In this document: piece after piece, positions 42,681-50,274 of the stretch | Layout of the letters: each line of letters opens with the position of its first letter | Numbering within the stretch: the first letter of the stretch is position 1 | From: Phycisphaerae bacterium | GTDB taxonomy: Bacteria; Planctomycetota; Phycisphaerae; UBA1845; PWPN01 | Direction: 5' to 3' | Assembly: GCA_012729395.1 (NCBI GenBank) | Contig: JAAYDF010000142.1 | Coordinates: 1-64,000 of the forward strand | Length of the DNA stretch: 64,000 nucleotides | Position numbers and translations under genes: made by a program | Notes under the pieces: model-generated | What the model saw: the letters and a program-made list of their open reading frames with translations, nothing else | What the model was told of the DNA's origin: nothing | The model's database searches: none

Positions 42681-45620
42681 ATGACCCCACAGCAGTTCAT
42701 CAGCAAATGGCAGCGCAGCACACTGACCGAACGGTCGGCGTGTCAGCAGCATTTCCTCGACCTGTGCGAGCTTCTCGGTCAGCCCAAGCCCGCGCAGGCC
42801 GACCCCCAAGGGGCCTGGTACACCTTTGAACGCGGCGTGCACAAGACCGGCGGCGGCGACGGGTGGGCCGACGTGTGGATGCGCGGGCATTTCGGCTGGG
42901 AGTACAAGGGCAAGAAACGCGACCTCGTCGAGGCCTACAAGCAGCTCCTCCTCTACCGCGAGGACCTCGAAAACCCGCCGCTGCTGATCGTCTGCGACAT
43001 GGACCGCTTCGAGGTCCACACCAACTTCACCGGCACGGTCAAGCGAGTCTATGCCTTCGATCTGGCGGGCCTCTCCGACCCGGTCAACCTCGACGTGCTA
43101 CGCAAGGTGTTCACCGAGCCGCACACCCTCCGCCCCGAGCAGACCAGCGTCGGCATCACCGAAGCCGCCGCCGCCTCGTTCGGCCAGATTGCCGACGCCC
43201 TCCGCGGGCGCGGCGTCCCCGCCCCGCAGGCCGCCCACTTCCTCATGAAGCTCATCTTCTGCTTCTTCGCCGAAGACATCCGCCTGCTGCCCAAGGATCT
43301 GTTCACCTCGCTGCTGGCCAAGTGCAAGGACGATCCACAACGCCTCAGCCGCCTGCTGCGGCAGCTTTTCGAGGCCATGACGCGCGGCGGCGACTTCGGC
43401 GCGGATACCATCTCGTACTTCAACGGCGGGCTCTTCGCCGACGCCCAAGTGGTCGATCTGGCCGAGACCGACATCGAGGCCTTGCTCCGGCTGGCCGCTT
43501 ACGACTGGTCGCAGGTCGAGCCGTCGATCTTCGGCACGCTGTTCGAGCGCACGCTCGACCCGGCCAAGCGGGCCCAGATCGGCGCCCACTACACCAGCAA
43601 GGAGGACATCCTCACGCTCGTCGAGCCGGTCCTCATGGCCCCGCTGCGCCGCGAGTGGGCCGAGGTACGCCGGCGGTGTGACGCCCTGTGGCCCAAGATC
43701 ATCGCCGCCCCCGCCCGCACGCGCCGCCGGGGCGTTGACTCGAAGGAACGCCGCAAGCACGACCGGTTGATCCAGGACTTCATCGAGCGCCTGGCCCAGG
43801 TCCGCGTGCTGGACCCGGCCTGCGGGTCGGGCAATTTTCTCTACGTGTCCATCCAGCGGTTGCTGGACATGGAGAAGGAGGTCATCGCCTACGCCGCCGA
43901 CCGTCAGCTCCCCCTGCTCCCGCACGTCCGCCCGACGCAGCTTGCCGGCATCGAGATCAACCCCTACGCCCAGGAACTCGCCCAGGTGGTCATCTGGATC
44001 GGCTACCTGCAATGGATGCACCACAACGGCTTCAGCCCGCCCCGCGACCCGGTGCTCGACCCCATCCAGAGCATCCGCTGCATGGACGCCATCGTGGACC
44101 TCTCCGATCCCAAGCACCCCCAAGAGCCCGACTGGCCCGAGGCCGACGTGGTCGTGGGGAATCCGCCGTTCCTGGGGGGCAACCGCGTACGGCAGGGGCT
44201 CGGTGATGATTATACAGAGACCATGTTCGCACTATGGAAAGACCGGGTTCCTGCCTTTGCGGACCTGTGCTGCTACTGGTTCGAGCAGAGCCGGGCGATG
44301 ATCCAGGCCGGCAGACTCAAGCGAGCAGGCCTGCTCGCAACCCAGGGCATACGGGGTGGGGCCAACCGCGAAGTGCTCAGGCGGATCAAGGAGACCGGTG
44401 GCATCTTCTTCGCCATTTCGGATCGGGATTGGATTCTCGACGGAGCCAATGTCCATGTGTCGATGATCGGCTTCGACGATGGAAGGGAAACCGAGAGAGT
44501 TTTGGATGGTACCGCTGTAGCAGCGATTACTCCCGACCTACGGTCTGGTCAGGATCTGACGACTGCGCGAATCCTGCCTGTCAACTCCGGCATTCAAATG
44601 GAGGGGGTGAAGAAGGGGGCGAAGTTCGACCTGGACGAAAAAACAGCCCGACAATTGCTATCGCGACCCAATCCCAACCGGTTTCCGAACTCCAATGTCA
44701 TTCGGCAGTATGTCAACGGGGAGCAACTGTACAGGTCGCGCGCCATGGGCTGGCTGATCTGTTTTCCCCCAGACGCAGACCTGTCTGAAGCGGCGCAATA
44801 CGAGGGACCGTTTGAATACATCAAGACCCACGTCTTTCCGAAGTACGGAATAACGAGGCGCAAGTGGTGGGTGCACGAGCGGCCGCGACCGGAAATGGCC
44901 CGAGCACTCGCAGGCGTGTCACGTTACATCGCAACCGTGCGCCATTCGAAGCACCGCCTCTTCGTATGGCTCGACAGATCTGTGGTTTGTGACAGTGCAA
45001 TTGTCCTGTTTCCCCGCGACGACGACTACTTCTTCGGCGTGCTGCACTCGGCGGTTCACGAGCGGTGGTCGCTCCGCATGGGGACGGCCCTTGAAGACCG
45101 GCCCCGTTACACGCCGACGACGTGTTTCGAGACGTTCGCGTTTCCGCCGCTGGCCGGGGGCATCGCCAAGGATGTGCCGGCGGCGGACGACTTTGCCGGC
45201 GCACCGGCGGATTACGACCCGGAGCGGGCACGGGCGTTGCGTACGCGGATCGCGACCGCCGCCGCACGGCTCAACGAACTGCGCGAGAACTGGCTCAACC
45301 CCACCAACCCGGACGGCTCGCCCGCCCTTTCCGCCGCCGAGCTCAAGAAGCGAACGCTGACCAACCTCTACAACCAGCGTCCGACCTGGCTGGAACTCGC
45401 CCACCTGGAACTCGATCGCGCCGTCCTGGCCGCCTACGCCTGGCCCGAGGCCTGGGCCGAGGCCCTCCAGCCCAACCGCGACCCCGGCGGCAAAGTCAAC
45501 CCCATCCTCGGCGTCGCCGACCCCGCCGTCGAGCAGGAAACCCTCGCCCGACTGCTGGCGCTGAACCTGGAGATGGCAGACCCGCCGCGCAACGACAGCC
45601 TGCTTGCACCTAAGACTTGA
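42681..45620 (+). CDS. MmeI-like type IIL restriction-modification enzyme (nuclease, methyltransferase and target recognition in one chain)
   Basis: A 979-residue protein. The N-terminal nuclease has D64-x9-E74-Y-K76, the same D-x9-ExK spacing known for MmeI. The adenine methyltransferase has SAM motif I DPACGSGNFLY near 378 and catalytic NPPF near 494. A target-recognition region follows (about 620-850), with WWVHERPRPEMARAL and YIATVRHSKHRLFVWL typical of MmeI-family enzymes. One chain would both methylate and cut, so no separate specificity subunit is needed. Codon use changes abruptly near 44170 and back near 45050, marking the recognition part as a probable swapped segment. The BREX-like YeeA family is an alternative, but the PD-ExK N-terminus favours MmeI. 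Confidence 0.9.
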   Translation: MTPQQFISKWQRSTLTERSACQQHFLDLCELLGQPKPAQADPQGAWYTFERGVHKTGGGDGWADVWMRGHFGWEYKGKKRDLVEAYKQLLLYREDLENPPLLIVCDMDRFEVHTNFTGTVKRVYAFDLAGLSDPVNLDVLRKVFTEPHTLRPEQTSVGITEAAAASFGQIADALRGRGVPAPQAAHFLMKLIFCFFAEDIRLLPKDLFTSLLAKCKDDPQRLSRLLRQLFEAMTRGGDFGADTISYFNGGLFADAQVVDLAETDIEALLRLAAYDWSQVEPSIFGTLFERTLDPAKRAQIGAHYTSKEDILTLVEPVLMAPLRREWAEVRRRCDALWPKIIAAPARTRRRGVDSKERRKHDRLIQDFIERLAQVRVLDPACGSGNFLYVSIQRLLDMEKEVIAYAADRQLPLLPHVRPTQLAGIEINPYAQELAQVVIWIGYLQWMHHNGFSPPRDPVLDPIQSIRCMDAIVDLSDPKHPQEPDWPEADVVVGNPPFLGGNRVRQGLGDDYTETMFALWKDRVPAFADLCCYWFEQSRAMIQAGRLKRAGLLATQGIRGGANREVLRRIKETGGIFFAISDRDWILDGANVHVSMIGFDDGRETERVLDGTAVAAITPDLRSGQDLTTARILPVNSGIQMEGVKKGAKFDLDEKTARQLLSRPNPNRFPNSNVIRQYVNGEQLYRSRAMGWLICFPPDADLSEAAQYEGPFEYIKTHVFPKYGITRRKWWVHERPRPEMARALAGVSRYIATVRHSKHRLFVWLDRSVVCDSAIVLFPRDDDYFFGVLHSAVHERWSLRMGTALEDRPRYTPTTCFETFAFPPLAGGIAKDVPAADDFAGAPADYDPERARALRTRIATAAARLNELRENWLNPTNPDGSPALSAAELKKRTLTNLYNQRPTWLELAHLELDRAVLAAYAWPEAWAEALQPNRDPGGKVNPILGVADPAVEQETLARLLALNLEMADPPRNDSLLAPKT

Positions 45621-45713
45621 CGGTGGCATACTCTCAATGGCCAGGCTGTTGTCGAACTGGCCACACGAACGGTTTCTGAGCGCTTGTTGCGTACGGCATG
45701 TGAGGCCTGGCCG

Positions 45714-47855
45714 GTGAAAGACGAAACCAATCTTCAGATTACCATTGCCGCAGTCCGCGCGGATCACCCCGGCGTGAACGACGTTATAAGACTCGCCGAT
45801 CAGAATTGCGGCCGACTCGGCTTTGTACCGGCAGAAGCCCTCCGCAGGGCAGCCGGGCAAAGGAAGATCCTCGTCGCTATCGGCGCGGAGAATCAGGTTC
45901 TCGGATACGTATGGTACAGCGTGACTCAATCGACGGCGGAAGCCCGGATTCACCATTTGTGTGTTGCTTCAGACCACCGGAAGGGCGGAGTTGGTCGGAG
46001 GCTTGTCGACGCAATAAAGCATTGCACAATGAATCTGCGCGGCATTGTGCTGCATTGTCGCAGGGACTATGAGGATTCGTCCAGGTTCTGGCGAAGTGTT
46101 GGCTTCGTGCCCCTCGCCGAGATACGTGGGCGCGGTAGGGATGAGACGCGTCTCACGTGCTTTCGGTTTGACCATGGGCATGCCGACCTGTGGACCGACC
46201 ATCGTGCGCACCTTGCACAAACCAAGGCTGTTGCAGTACTGGACGCGAACGTCTTCTTTGATTTGGCTGGCGAGTCCAGCTCAACCCACAACGAATCTCA
46301 AGCACTCAGGGCGGACTGGGTTGCCGAGTACGCTGTGCTCTGGATAGCCGATGAGCTGTACGCGGAGATCGATCGGCATTCTGACCCAATCCGGCGACAC
46401 AAACATCGCGATTTCGCTCGTGGATTCCATCGTCTGTCGGCCACCGTGCCGGAGAATGATGCGGCACTCTCAGTTCTTGAACAGATCTTGCCGACTGCCC
46501 GCTCCGAGTCGGACCAATCAGATCGCAGGCACTTAGCAACGGCCGTGGCGGGAGGGGCGCATTTCTTCATTTCACGAGACAGGGTGCTACTCCAGCACGC
46601 TCCACAGATCGCCGAGCGGTATGGGCTGAGCGTCGTGTCACCGCTAGAGTTTATTCTTAGCATCGATGAACTTCAGCATGGGTGGCACTATCAACCAGCC
46701 CGTTTGGCGGGTTCAGGGCTGGCCATCCAGATGATCTCGGGCAAGGATGTACGGACACTGAGCGATGAGTTCTTGAACTACGGCGATGGCGAAACCAAAG
46801 CAGAGTTCGAGAGGCGACTGCGCACACAGCTTGCAGACGTGGGGAATACCCGAGGGTATATCGTCCGCGACGGAACTCGAAGTCTGGCGCTCATGGTCTT
46901 GTCCCGCAGACCCGACTCTGCAATGGAGATTGCTTTCCTTCGTGTACGGCCATACCCACTCGGGCCAACTCTAGCCTGTCACCTGGCCTGTAAGGCCATC
47001 CAGATTGCAGTCGGCGATGCAGCTCCTGTGACCATTCTCTCCGATGTCCGTTGCCAGGACTTTGTCCGAACTACTTGCGGCGAGCTTGGGTTTGTGGTTG
47101 CTGGCGACCATTTGGCCAAGATCAGCCTCCAAGGTCTTTTCGCCCCGGACGCGATCCTTCAGAAGATTGAGGACCTGCACACAACACAGCCTAAGTTGAA
47201 GGCAGAAACCGAGCCGATCGCAGACGCGGTATCCCGGTATCACCTACCAGACTGCTCTGCTGCCGAACTCGCCCGCGTTGAGAAGTTGCTCTGGCCAATG
47301 AAGCTTGATACTGAGCGGTTGCCCGCGTACATGGTTCCGATCAAGGCCAAATGGGCTACACACTTGTTCGATGAGAATCTCGCCGCTCAGGAACTCTTTT
47401 CCGTGGACACATTTCTCTCGCTTCAGCATGAGAATGTATACTATCGGGCGGCCCGCCAGCGTATCGTCACTGCCCCCGGACGGATTCTGTGGTACATTAG
47501 TGAGACCCGAGATTACGACGGGACCGCTCAAATTCGTGCCTGTTCGCGGGTCGAAGAAGTTGTTGTCGCACCAGCACACACACTGTTCAAGAGGTTTAGT
47601 CGACTTGGCGTATTCGGTTGGCGCGACGTGTTATCGACGGCCAGGAACAAACCGAACGCGGACATTATGGCGATCCGGTTTGCCGGGACTGAATTGCTGT
47701 CCTGCCCGGTTCCGCGGGGGGAGGTGCGCCGGGTGCTGAGCGAGGAACGCGAAGGCAAGACACCTCAGTTTACGACTGCCCTGGAACTCTCACACCGTGA
47801 GTTTGCCCGTTTATACGTACTCGGCCAGGGAATCACGACTGGAGGTTCCGCATGA
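45714..47855 (+). CDS. GNAT - PIN - GNAT-like - PUA-like multidomain protein
   Basis: A 713-residue protein that I cannot name. Residues 8-150 are a GNAT acetyltransferase with the acetyl-CoA motif VASDHRKGGVGRRLVDA. Residues 172-315 are a PIN nuclease domain with Asp177 (VLDANVFFDLA), Glu214 (ELYAEID), Asp270 and Asp289 (FFISRDR), the full acidic set. About 340-475 is a second degenerate GNAT-like fold. About 540-700 is a PUA/EVE-like barrel (GRILWYISETRDYDG, RFSRLGVFGWRDV). GTG at 45714 has GAGG eight bases upstream. Its stop overlaps the ASCH gene (ATGA). GC content is visibly lower than the flanks. It likely senses and cuts or modifies RNA. Confidence 0.82.
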   Translation: MKDETNLQITIAAVRADHPGVNDVIRLADQNCGRLGFVPAEALRRAAGQRKILVAIGAENQVLGYVWYSVTQSTAEARIHHLCVASDHRKGGVGRRLVDAIKHCTMNLRGIVLHCRRDYEDSSRFWRSVGFVPLAEIRGRGRDETRLTCFRFDHGHADLWTDHRAHLAQTKAVAVLDANVFFDLAGESSSTHNESQALRADWVAEYAVLWIADELYAEIDRHSDPIRRHKHRDFARGFHRLSATVPENDAALSVLEQILPTARSESDQSDRRHLATAVAGGAHFFISRDRVLLQHAPQIAERYGLSVVSPLEFILSIDELQHGWHYQPARLAGSGLAIQMISGKDVRTLSDEFLNYGDGETKAEFERRLRTQLADVGNTRGYIVRDGTRSLALMVLSRRPDSAMEIAFLRVRPYPLGPTLACHLACKAIQIAVGDAAPVTILSDVRCQDFVRTTCGELGFVVAGDHLAKISLQGLFAPDAILQKIEDLHTTQPKLKAETEPIADAVSRYHLPDCSAAELARVEKLLWPMKLDTERLPAYMVPIKAKWATHLFDENLAAQELFSVDTFLSLQHENVYYRAARQRIVTAPGRILWYISETRDYDGTAQIRACSRVEEVVVAPAHTLFKRFSRLGVFGWRDVLSTARNKPNADIMAIRFAGTELLSCPVPRGEVRRVLSEEREGKTPQFTTALELSHREFARLYVLGQGITTGGSA

Positions 47856-48310
47856 ACAAGGCGCTCCTGTTGTCAGTCAGAGCACACTTTGCCGAGATGA
47901 TCTTCGAGGGGACGAAGACCTTTGAACTTCGACGGCGTCAACCGAAGGTACAGCGCGGCGACTACCTTATCATTTATGTGCCTGCGCCGTTCAAGCGGAT
48001 CGCGGGTATTGTTGCCGTTGACGATGTGATTGAGGCCCGTGTTCCTACACTCTGGCGGCGTGTGCGGCTGAACTGTGGGATCGCTTATCGCGATTTCTTG
48101 TCTTACTTTTCTGGCTTGTCAGTCGGTTTTGGGATCGTTCTAACCAGGCCAGCTCGGCTTGCGTCCCCAGTGCCATTGGAGGCGTTGCGCGCCCTTGAGC
48201 CGGGTTTTAGCCCGCAGGGATATAAGTACCTGAGCCGAGATGACATTACCGACGCTCTTGTGCGCCTCCGACCTTACGCTGGCCGCCGCGATCAGCGAAT
48301 TCCATCGTGA
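47852..48310 (+). CDS. ASCH-domain (PUA-like) protein
   Basis: A 152-residue protein with the ASCH signature G-x-K-x-x-E-x-R at residues 20-27 (GTKTFELR) in ALLLSVRAHFAEMIFEGTK. ASCH domains are predicted RNA- or nucleotide-binding folds related to PUA. In several known cases they hydrolyse modified nucleosides or accompany acetyltransferases. It is translated from an ATG that overlaps the stop of the GNAT-PIN gene, which suggests a bipartite system made in fixed ratio. Low GC, like its neighbour, suggests joint transfer. Confidence 0.88.
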   Translation: MNKALLLSVRAHFAEMIFEGTKTFELRRRQPKVQRGDYLIIYVPAPFKRIAGIVAVDDVIEARVPTLWRRVRLNCGIAYRDFLSYFSGLSVGFGIVLTRPARLASPVPLEALRALEPGFSPQGYKYLSRDDITDALVRLRPYAGRRDQRIPS

Positions 48311-49335: not shown

Positions 49336-49383
49336 GCGAGTTTATCCTGGTTTATCAATCGCTGATAAACTTGCTAAACTCGC
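49336..49383. repeat. Long AT-rich imperfect hairpin
   Basis: GCGAGTTTATC..GGTTTATCA (49336-49357) pairs with TGATAAAC..TAAACTCGC (49363-49383) around a five-base loop. The stem is 17-21 bp with one internal mismatch bubble. Its AT-rich sequence stands out in GC-rich DNA. It is not followed by a T run. Confidence 0.8.
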
Positions 49384-49575
49384 TCGAATCTCCTGAAGGG
49401 TTGTGGCATGTGGTTCCAAGACCTTCGGCCTGGGCTTGCGCAACGTGCCCTGCAGGCTCGGCGTTTGCAGTCACCGATCGCCGAGGATGGGCGAGGCAGG
49501 GAGAGTGCTGAGTGATGAGTCACGGGACAGTCGAGCCGGGGACGCGAGTCCCCGGGTGGGATCGGGGAAGCCGTG

Positions 49576-49748
49576 GATTGGAGATTGGAGATTGCAGATT
49601 GCGGAGGGGGCAGAGATTGGAGATTGGAGATTGCAGATTGCGGAGGGGGCAGGGATTGGAGATTGGAGATTGCAGATTGCGGAGGGAGGCAGGGATTGGA
49701 GATTGGAGATTGGAAATTGGAGATTGCGGAGGGAGGCGGGGATTGGGG
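49576..49748. repeat. Tandem repeat of a GATTGGA/GATTGCA heptad unit
   Basis: Four to five tandem units of about 39-47 bases, each made of heptads GATTGGA, GATTGGA, GATTGCA, GATTGCG and a linker GAGGGGGCAG. Periods are 39, 39, 40 and 47 bases, so the array has been edited by heptad gain. It begins right after the 3' end of the HYExAFE gene. It is not CRISPR-like: there are no unique spacers. Confidence 0.92.
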
Positions 49749-49749
49749 G

Positions 49750-50274
49750 TCAGGATTCGCAGACCATCTCGTCGACGGGGTGGGCGATGTCGCGGAAGGC
49801 GGCGGCGGGGACGCTGACGGTTTGCCAGCGGTCGGAGCGGGCGCGGCAGTGCTGCTGGTAATCGGCCAGTAGGACGGACAGGAAGGCGTAGCGTTGGCCG
49901 TCGAACTCGTGGGCGGGCTGGTCTGCGGGCCAGCGGGCGGGATCGCCCTGGAGGTGGTAGACGAACACGAAGCGTGCCTGGAAGTCGTCGCCGAAGACCG
50001 CCTGCCATTCGGAGAGGCCCTCGATATCCTCGCGGGTGACCCAGTTCTCCCAATATCGTCGGCCGCCGCGCGTGCCGACGTAGGGGAACTGACGGCCCTT
50101 GACGTCCACCAGCCACGGATGCTGGCCGGCAGGATAGACCAGCAGGTCGAAGGATTTGACCTTCGAGCCGGCCAGGATGGCCCGTCGCGTTTCATCGACG
50201 GGGACGTAGGGGATATCGCGGCTTCGCAGGAAGCCCATGAAGGCGTTCTCGTAGTGGCCGTGTCGATGTGCCAT
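49750..50274 (-). CDS. HYExAFE family nuclease-like protein
   Basis: A 174-residue protein with the planctomycete HYExAFE signature near the N-terminus (HGHYENAFM, here with Met for the last Glu). Glu9, Asp43 (FDLLVYP) and the D-x-K of LVDVKGRQF (Asp57, Lys59) form the arrangement of a PD-(D/E)xK nuclease such as a Holliday-junction or Vsr-like fold. I do not know a proven activity. The start at 50274 is the only sensible ATG. The tandem heptad repeat abuts its 3' end. Confidence 0.82.
   Translation of the reverse strand: MAHRHGHYENAFMGFLRSRDIPYVPVDETRRAILAGSKVKSFDLLVYPAGQHPWLVDVKGRQFPYVGTRGGRRYWENWVTREDIEGLSEWQAVFGDDFQARFVFVYHLQGDPARWPADQPAHEFDGQRYAFLSVLLADYQQHCRARSDRWQTVSVPAAAFRDIAHPVDEMVCES

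Follow-up and report, generated by a model that had tools for sequence, protein, structure and literature searches.

A pair of overlapping genes in the 64-kb stretch of DNA analyzed here (64,000 nucleotides; hereafter the window) is a divergent branch of the (PIN)-GNAT-EVE/ASCH family that is extended by a GNAT domain (Table 1), and it probably constitutes a two-gene, toxin-antitoxin-like pair used by bacteria against viruses. Judging from sequence, the chances are about even that the large protein is an effector that acts on RNA and is kept in check by the ASCH protein, which we infer to be its partner or antitoxin. The effector reading draws on the matches of the two genes to the PADLOC families PDC-M11A and PDC-M11B, the annotation of the phage pair GevT/GevA, the pairing and co-variation of the effector with an ASCH protein, a mostly intact PIN site, the CoA loop of the first GNAT domain (GNAT1), the restriction genes found near relatives, a patchy distribution, and the presence of two divergent copies in one genome.

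Table 1. Coordinates of the gene pair, its domains, and its upstream neighbor in the window
Feature	Coordinates	Strand	Basis or remarks
MmeI-like type IIG restriction-methyltransferase, upstream neighbor	42681..45620	+	Pfam, PADLOC, composition
Effector gene, GNAT1-PIN-GNAT2-ASCH/EVE barrel	45714..47855	+	713 aa, GTG start
GNAT1, residues 8-155	45735..46178	+	Pfam 3e-9; fold match Ard1; conservation
PIN RNase domain, residues 161-325	46194..46688	+	Pfam PIN_3 1.6e-6; PDC-M11A 1.7e-8
GNAT2, degenerate GNAT fold, residues 331-476	46704..47141	+	Structure model, conservation
C-terminal ASCH/EVE-type PUA barrel, residues 533-709	47310..47840	+	ZmASCH Z 16.3; PDC-M11A 2.5e-5
Partner ASCH protein gene	47852..48310	+	152 aa; Pfam, PDC-M11B, ZmASCH matches

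The effector reading frame spans 713 codons and closes with TGA at 47853-47855; a TTG at 45684 is a possible alternative start. The ATG of the ASCH gene overlaps the effector stop codon by 4 nt (ATGA), as described in the initial annotation. The lower GC content reported there was also borne out: the pair region has a GC content of 0.571 (window mean, 0.638; standard deviation, 0.017), the lowest among the 614 segments of its size (2.6 kb) in the 64-kb window. A restriction enzyme had been placed beside the pair, and a type IIG restriction gene does lie directly upstream, though its composition is native-like (GC3, 0.83 versus 0.62). Joint acquisition of the restriction gene with the pair is therefore improbable, and its unlike composition ruled it out as a member of the unit.

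A Pfam search placed a GNAT domain at residues 51-132 and a PIN_3 domain at residues 174-290 of the effector (E values in Table 1) and an ASCH domain in the partner (E value, 3.1e-6), with all three matches exceeding the curated cut-offs; GNAT2 and the C-terminal barrel had no match to any Pfam family, EVE included. The AlphaFold2 model of the whole chain, computed with 67 natural sequences, had a mean pLDDT of 92 and a pTM of 0.68, and its domain arrangement is uncertain. Because matches to GNAT1 swamped the fold search with the whole chain, residues 331-712 were modeled separately (pLDDT, 94.9; pTM, 0.92). In this model, GNAT2 packs against the C-terminal barrel and is nearest to GNAT folds (for example, 3d8p; Z score of 14.9, 135 residues aligned, 2.2 Å), while the best solved match of the barrel is the Zymomonas ASCH structure 5y6c (141 residues aligned, 2.5 Å; Z score in Table 1). 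The barrel is named EVE in the literature; its nearest solved fold is an ASCH domain, the family to which the partner belongs, and the large proteins of a few relatives match PDC-M11B as well. GNAT1 is, at the level of fold only, nearest to the Ard1/Naa50/RimI N-terminal acetyltransferases (Z score of about 20; Ard1, 20.6). Pfam, AlphaFold2, and fold matches thus agree with the initial annotation, which had read the 713 residues as a GNAT, a PIN domain with four acidic residues, a second GNAT-like fold, and a PUA/EVE-like barrel; the last two are the folds predicted for residues 331-712.

Both window genes match the PADLOC candidate PDC-M11 (A + B). The effector matches PDC-M11A at residues 175-328 and 522-672 (1.3e-13), the partner matches PDC-M11B (2e-25), and residues 331-712 match the PDC-M11A models PDLC04421 (2.5e-5) and PDLC04420 (1.4e-4). 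Among 67 relatives, PDC-M11A was matched by 64 and PDLC04420 by 52. The PDC-M11A models matched here are 357 to 501 aa long and start at the PIN domain or the internal GNAT, whereas the window effector has an extra N-terminal part, of which residues 1-159 matched no PADLOC model. Operons of this kind appear in Bell et al. (2020; PMC7641849): in the available text of that article, a toxin-antitoxin or defense function is predicted for (PIN)-GNAT-EVE fusions with ASCH, Iyer et al. (2013) are credited with the first description, and no module of such operons is given as experimentally characterized. As far as that text describes these operons, the window branch resembles them in combining PIN with a GNAT-like fold and a PUA-superfamily barrel at the C terminus of a single chain, and in having an adjacent ASCH gene and restriction or other defense neighbors. 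It differs from them in that a CoA loop is carried by an additional GNAT at the N terminus and is missing from the internal GNAT, in its far-diverged sequence, and in a McrBC-linked clade with a decayed PIN site. A missing N-terminal GNAT is the usual layout and not a criterion of the family, so GNAT1 is an added domain and does not exclude the pair. Both this domain and its odd active site look new, lying outside the PADLOC models and the available text of Bell et al. (PMC7641849). The initial annotation had proposed an undescribed defense or RNA stress system. Its module of PUA/ASCH readers with GNAT and PIN effectors is supported by the PDC-M11A/B matches, the restriction neighbors, and the largely kept active sites; "undescribed" has to be dropped in view of the operons in Iyer et al. 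and in the available text of Bell et al. (2020; PMC7641849), and of GevT/GevA in PV340567.

GevT and GevA, of the lambdoid Escherichia phage PhiR47_2 (PV340567), are annotated as toxin and antitoxin. Like the window pair, they are two overlapping genes, GNAT-EVE followed by ASCH; unlike the window effector, GevT has 357 aa and carries neither a PIN domain nor an N-terminal GNAT. GevT matches the same PDC-M11A models as the window effector. As a single sequence against the C-terminal profile, it gave a weak match (E value, 0.007; collinear over 277 columns), so the link between GevT and this branch rests on the shared PADLOC models instead. The GNAT of GevT (L010:1944-3014) appears to have RGQRFL instead of a canonical RxxGxG/A loop, and the annotated toxin may, from this sequence, not be an ordinary acetyltransferase. 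A literature search found no papers on PDC-M11, GevT, or GevAT. The tRNA-acetylating GNAT toxins TacT and AtaT and the VapC PIN toxins are analogous in domain fold and two-gene layout, but the window partner is an ASCH protein and not an RHH-type (DUF1778) or VapB-type antitoxin, and GNAT1 carries a tryptophan at the inferred site of the usual tyrosine. The effector gene precedes the ASCH gene, which is the less usual order for type II toxin-antitoxin pairs.

The active sites of the PIN and GNAT1 domains are largely kept across the family, one of the points on which the initial annotation could be checked. All four PIN acids are present in the window copy (D177, E214, D270, and D289) and are kept in 53/63 members outside the McrBC-linked cyanobacterial clade. 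GNAT1 carries a CoA P-loop, with R89xxG92xG94 in the window copy and R/Q at position 89, G at 92, and A/G at 94 (R/QxxGxA/G) in most relatives. Its other conserved residues are C115, R116, D118, and W126, with C115 and W126 each found in 74/75 relatives. GNATs normally carry the tyrosine of a YxxxGF motif at the last of these positions. Placed by this motif, W126 would occupy the site of the usual catalytic tyrosine, and only one relative has a tyrosine there (L009; VYEHHGF). GNAT1 therefore likely binds CoA, judging from its loop, while the tryptophan puts ordinary acetyl transfer in doubt and makes ordinary catalysis uncertain. GNAT2 refines the initial annotation, which had reported a second GNAT-like fold: the RxxGxG/A CoA loop is absent from GNAT2, and its R410 is near-invariant (74/75 relatives), suggesting that GNAT2 is probably a structural or binding module. 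In the barrel, Y577, S611, and G632 are near-invariant.

According to the available text of Bell et al. (PMC7641849), the PIN form might instead be a counter-toxin, protective and not toxic, that degrades the acetylated aminoacyl-tRNAs produced by GNAT-EVE toxins of phages. The same text places short GNAT-EVE proteins in prophages and PIN-GNAT-EVE near type I restriction-modification (RM) and other host defense genes, which, along with the lambdoid phage location of GevT/GevA, favors this proposal. We nevertheless consider it quite unlikely for this branch, as its own additional GNAT with a CoA loop would make acetyl groups and not remove them, and the substrate is without sequence support.

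The closest solved relative of the partner is ZmASCH of Zymomonas mobilis (5GUS/5GUQ; 3.5e-12; profile E value, 1.1e-32), which is also the closest solved fold of the effector barrel. Of its residues, Tyr47 and Lys53 are kept in the partner as Y42 (48/48 relatives) and K48 (28/48), but Ser128 is Gly123 in the window copy, with serine in 26/48 relatives. ZmASCH is reported to be a weak RNase (PMC5615036), so the roles of effector and ASCH protein could be shared or reversed. In the effector reading, the ASCH protein would, at rest, bind the effector or its nucleic acid ligand and keep the effector inactive. Infection would alter the ligand (an RNA, in the simplest case a tRNA, that is modified or damaged) or remove the ASCH protein, upon which the C-terminal barrel, with GNAT2 rigidly attached, could dock on the RNA. 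The PIN domain would then cut the docked RNA, and GNAT1 might either acylate an aminoacyl or amino group or gate the activity by acetyl-CoA; translation would stop, and the phage would fail. The branch offers handles for testing this scheme, namely, the near-invariant GNAT signature C115-R-x-D with W126, the intact PIN site, and a partner with a structurally solved relative.

Relatives were sought in 84,980 genomes with a scan built on a five-sequence alignment and one peptide, AP[GAC]R[ILV]LWY[VI], which retrieved 89 sequences, of which 80 were retained. Owing to this design, residues 587-595 necessarily come out as conserved, and the four-domain architecture holds for the clade found and not for the whole superfamily. 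A scan of genome contigs that started from the single protein and a scan of viral contigs each found no relatives. The 80 relatives occur in Planctomycetota, Verrucomicrobiota, Cyanobacteriota, Bacteroidota, Actinomycetota, Pseudomonadota, Chloroflexota, and other phyla, and four records of the plasmid collection contain the pair. The ASCH gene directly follows the effector gene in 76/77 complete chains, at -80 to +25 nt, and the ATGA overlap is the commonest junction. Pairwise distances of the two proteins are correlated (r = 0.85, partly from shared organism history; maximum of 0.16 over 2,000 permutations). The clade of 80 relatives yielded no clear three-domain member. Those appearing to lack GNAT1 were rejected as such: in two (L084:8344-11677 and L088:8381-11698), an intervening sequence, in L084 a transposase-like open reading frame, splits GNAT1 from the rest at about the same position of the chain, and the remaining short chains either start late or are close to the end of a contig. 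Only 4/392 genomes of the phylum contain the pair. The genome of the window contains a second copy (L002; G000:C216:5453-7534), 34% identical to the window copy; an HNH_5 gene follows its ASCH gene, and an excisionase-like HTH gene precedes the pair. L002 is not the closest relative of the window copy in the tree, suggesting independent acquisition of the two copies. Taken with the plasmid copies, the deviant GC content, and the defense neighbors, this patchiness and the two divergent copies make a housekeeping enzyme of RNA turnover or modification very improbable, even though the domains are common in RNA metabolism and the authors of the ZmASCH study propose that ZmASCH controls the amount of cellular RNA (PMC5615036).

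The nearest neighbors of the relatives are enriched in restriction genes and are not mainly housekeeping genes, in keeping with the initial annotation. Recurrent neighbors are McrB and McrC (12 loci each, downstream), an SNF2/PLD helicase (9), Eco57I/N6 methylase-type RM (9), HNH_5 (6), and DUF499 (4). In the Pfam comparison, which is a raw-count enrichment among the top 25 families listed, uses longest-ORF gene calls, and includes the McrBC clade in the near set, 121 nearest genes yielded AAA_5/McrB (9), HNH_5 (6), N6_Mtase (4), Phage_integrase (4), and Eco57I (3), versus integrase (2) and no AAA_5, HNH_5, N6_Mtase, or Eco57I among the families listed for 121 distant genes (same contigs, at distances of >6.5 kb). 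Among the PADLOC matches listed, RM families lie near the pair, and helicases and other defense families lie far from it. An HNH_5-type gene adjoins the pair in six relatives (L061, L063, L008, L013, L026, and L051) and is a possible third component.

The McrBC-linked loci form a single clade of 12 cyanobacterial sequences with a support of 100 (L006, L007, L029, L040, L043, L048, L052, L053, L054, L056, L057, and L087), in which McrBC lies directly downstream, except that L007 showed no McrC. At least one PIN acid is replaced in 12/12 members of the clade versus 10/63 elsewhere (Fisher P value, 2e-8, which is overstated because the clade is a single origin). The replacements vary (A at D177; K, N, Y, or E at D270; N or E at D289; and Q at E214), and the PIN acids are kept in five sister sequences (four DEDD and one DEDE). 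This variety, together with the mostly intact sisters, suggests that constraint may have relaxed once the protein was partnered with a DNA nuclease. In this clade PIN is dispensable, which counts against the effector reading. The clade also favors an alternative in which modified phage DNA is recognized by the barrel and the ASCH protein, and these direct or license a nearby nuclease (McrBC, type I, or IIG), the PIN and GNAT domains being accessory; RM genes adjoin many other loci as well, and the available text of Bell et al. (PMC7641849) suggests that ASCH may bind modified DNA. We regard this alternative as unlikely, since PIN is intact in most members outside the clade, partners there are diverse or absent, the RM gene of the window is unlike the pair in composition, and the best solved match of the barrel is an RNA-cleaving ASCH protein. 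A further, unlikely reading would be a four-domain effector that combines PIN cleavage with the chemistry of a non-canonical, CoA-dependent GNAT (tryptophan for tyrosine) and that in cyanobacteria was co-opted by McrBC as a subunit for recognition or licensing while its RNase decayed, turning an RNA-targeting abortive defense into DNA restriction. As a natural PIN-loss group tied to McrBC, the clade allows the RNA-cutting and recognition roles to be told apart.

Elsewhere in the window, positions 49374-50274 on the minus strand encode a small protein starting MAHRHGHYENAFMGFLRS, with no Pfam match, which lies beside iterated repeats of the QSAISNLQSP type.
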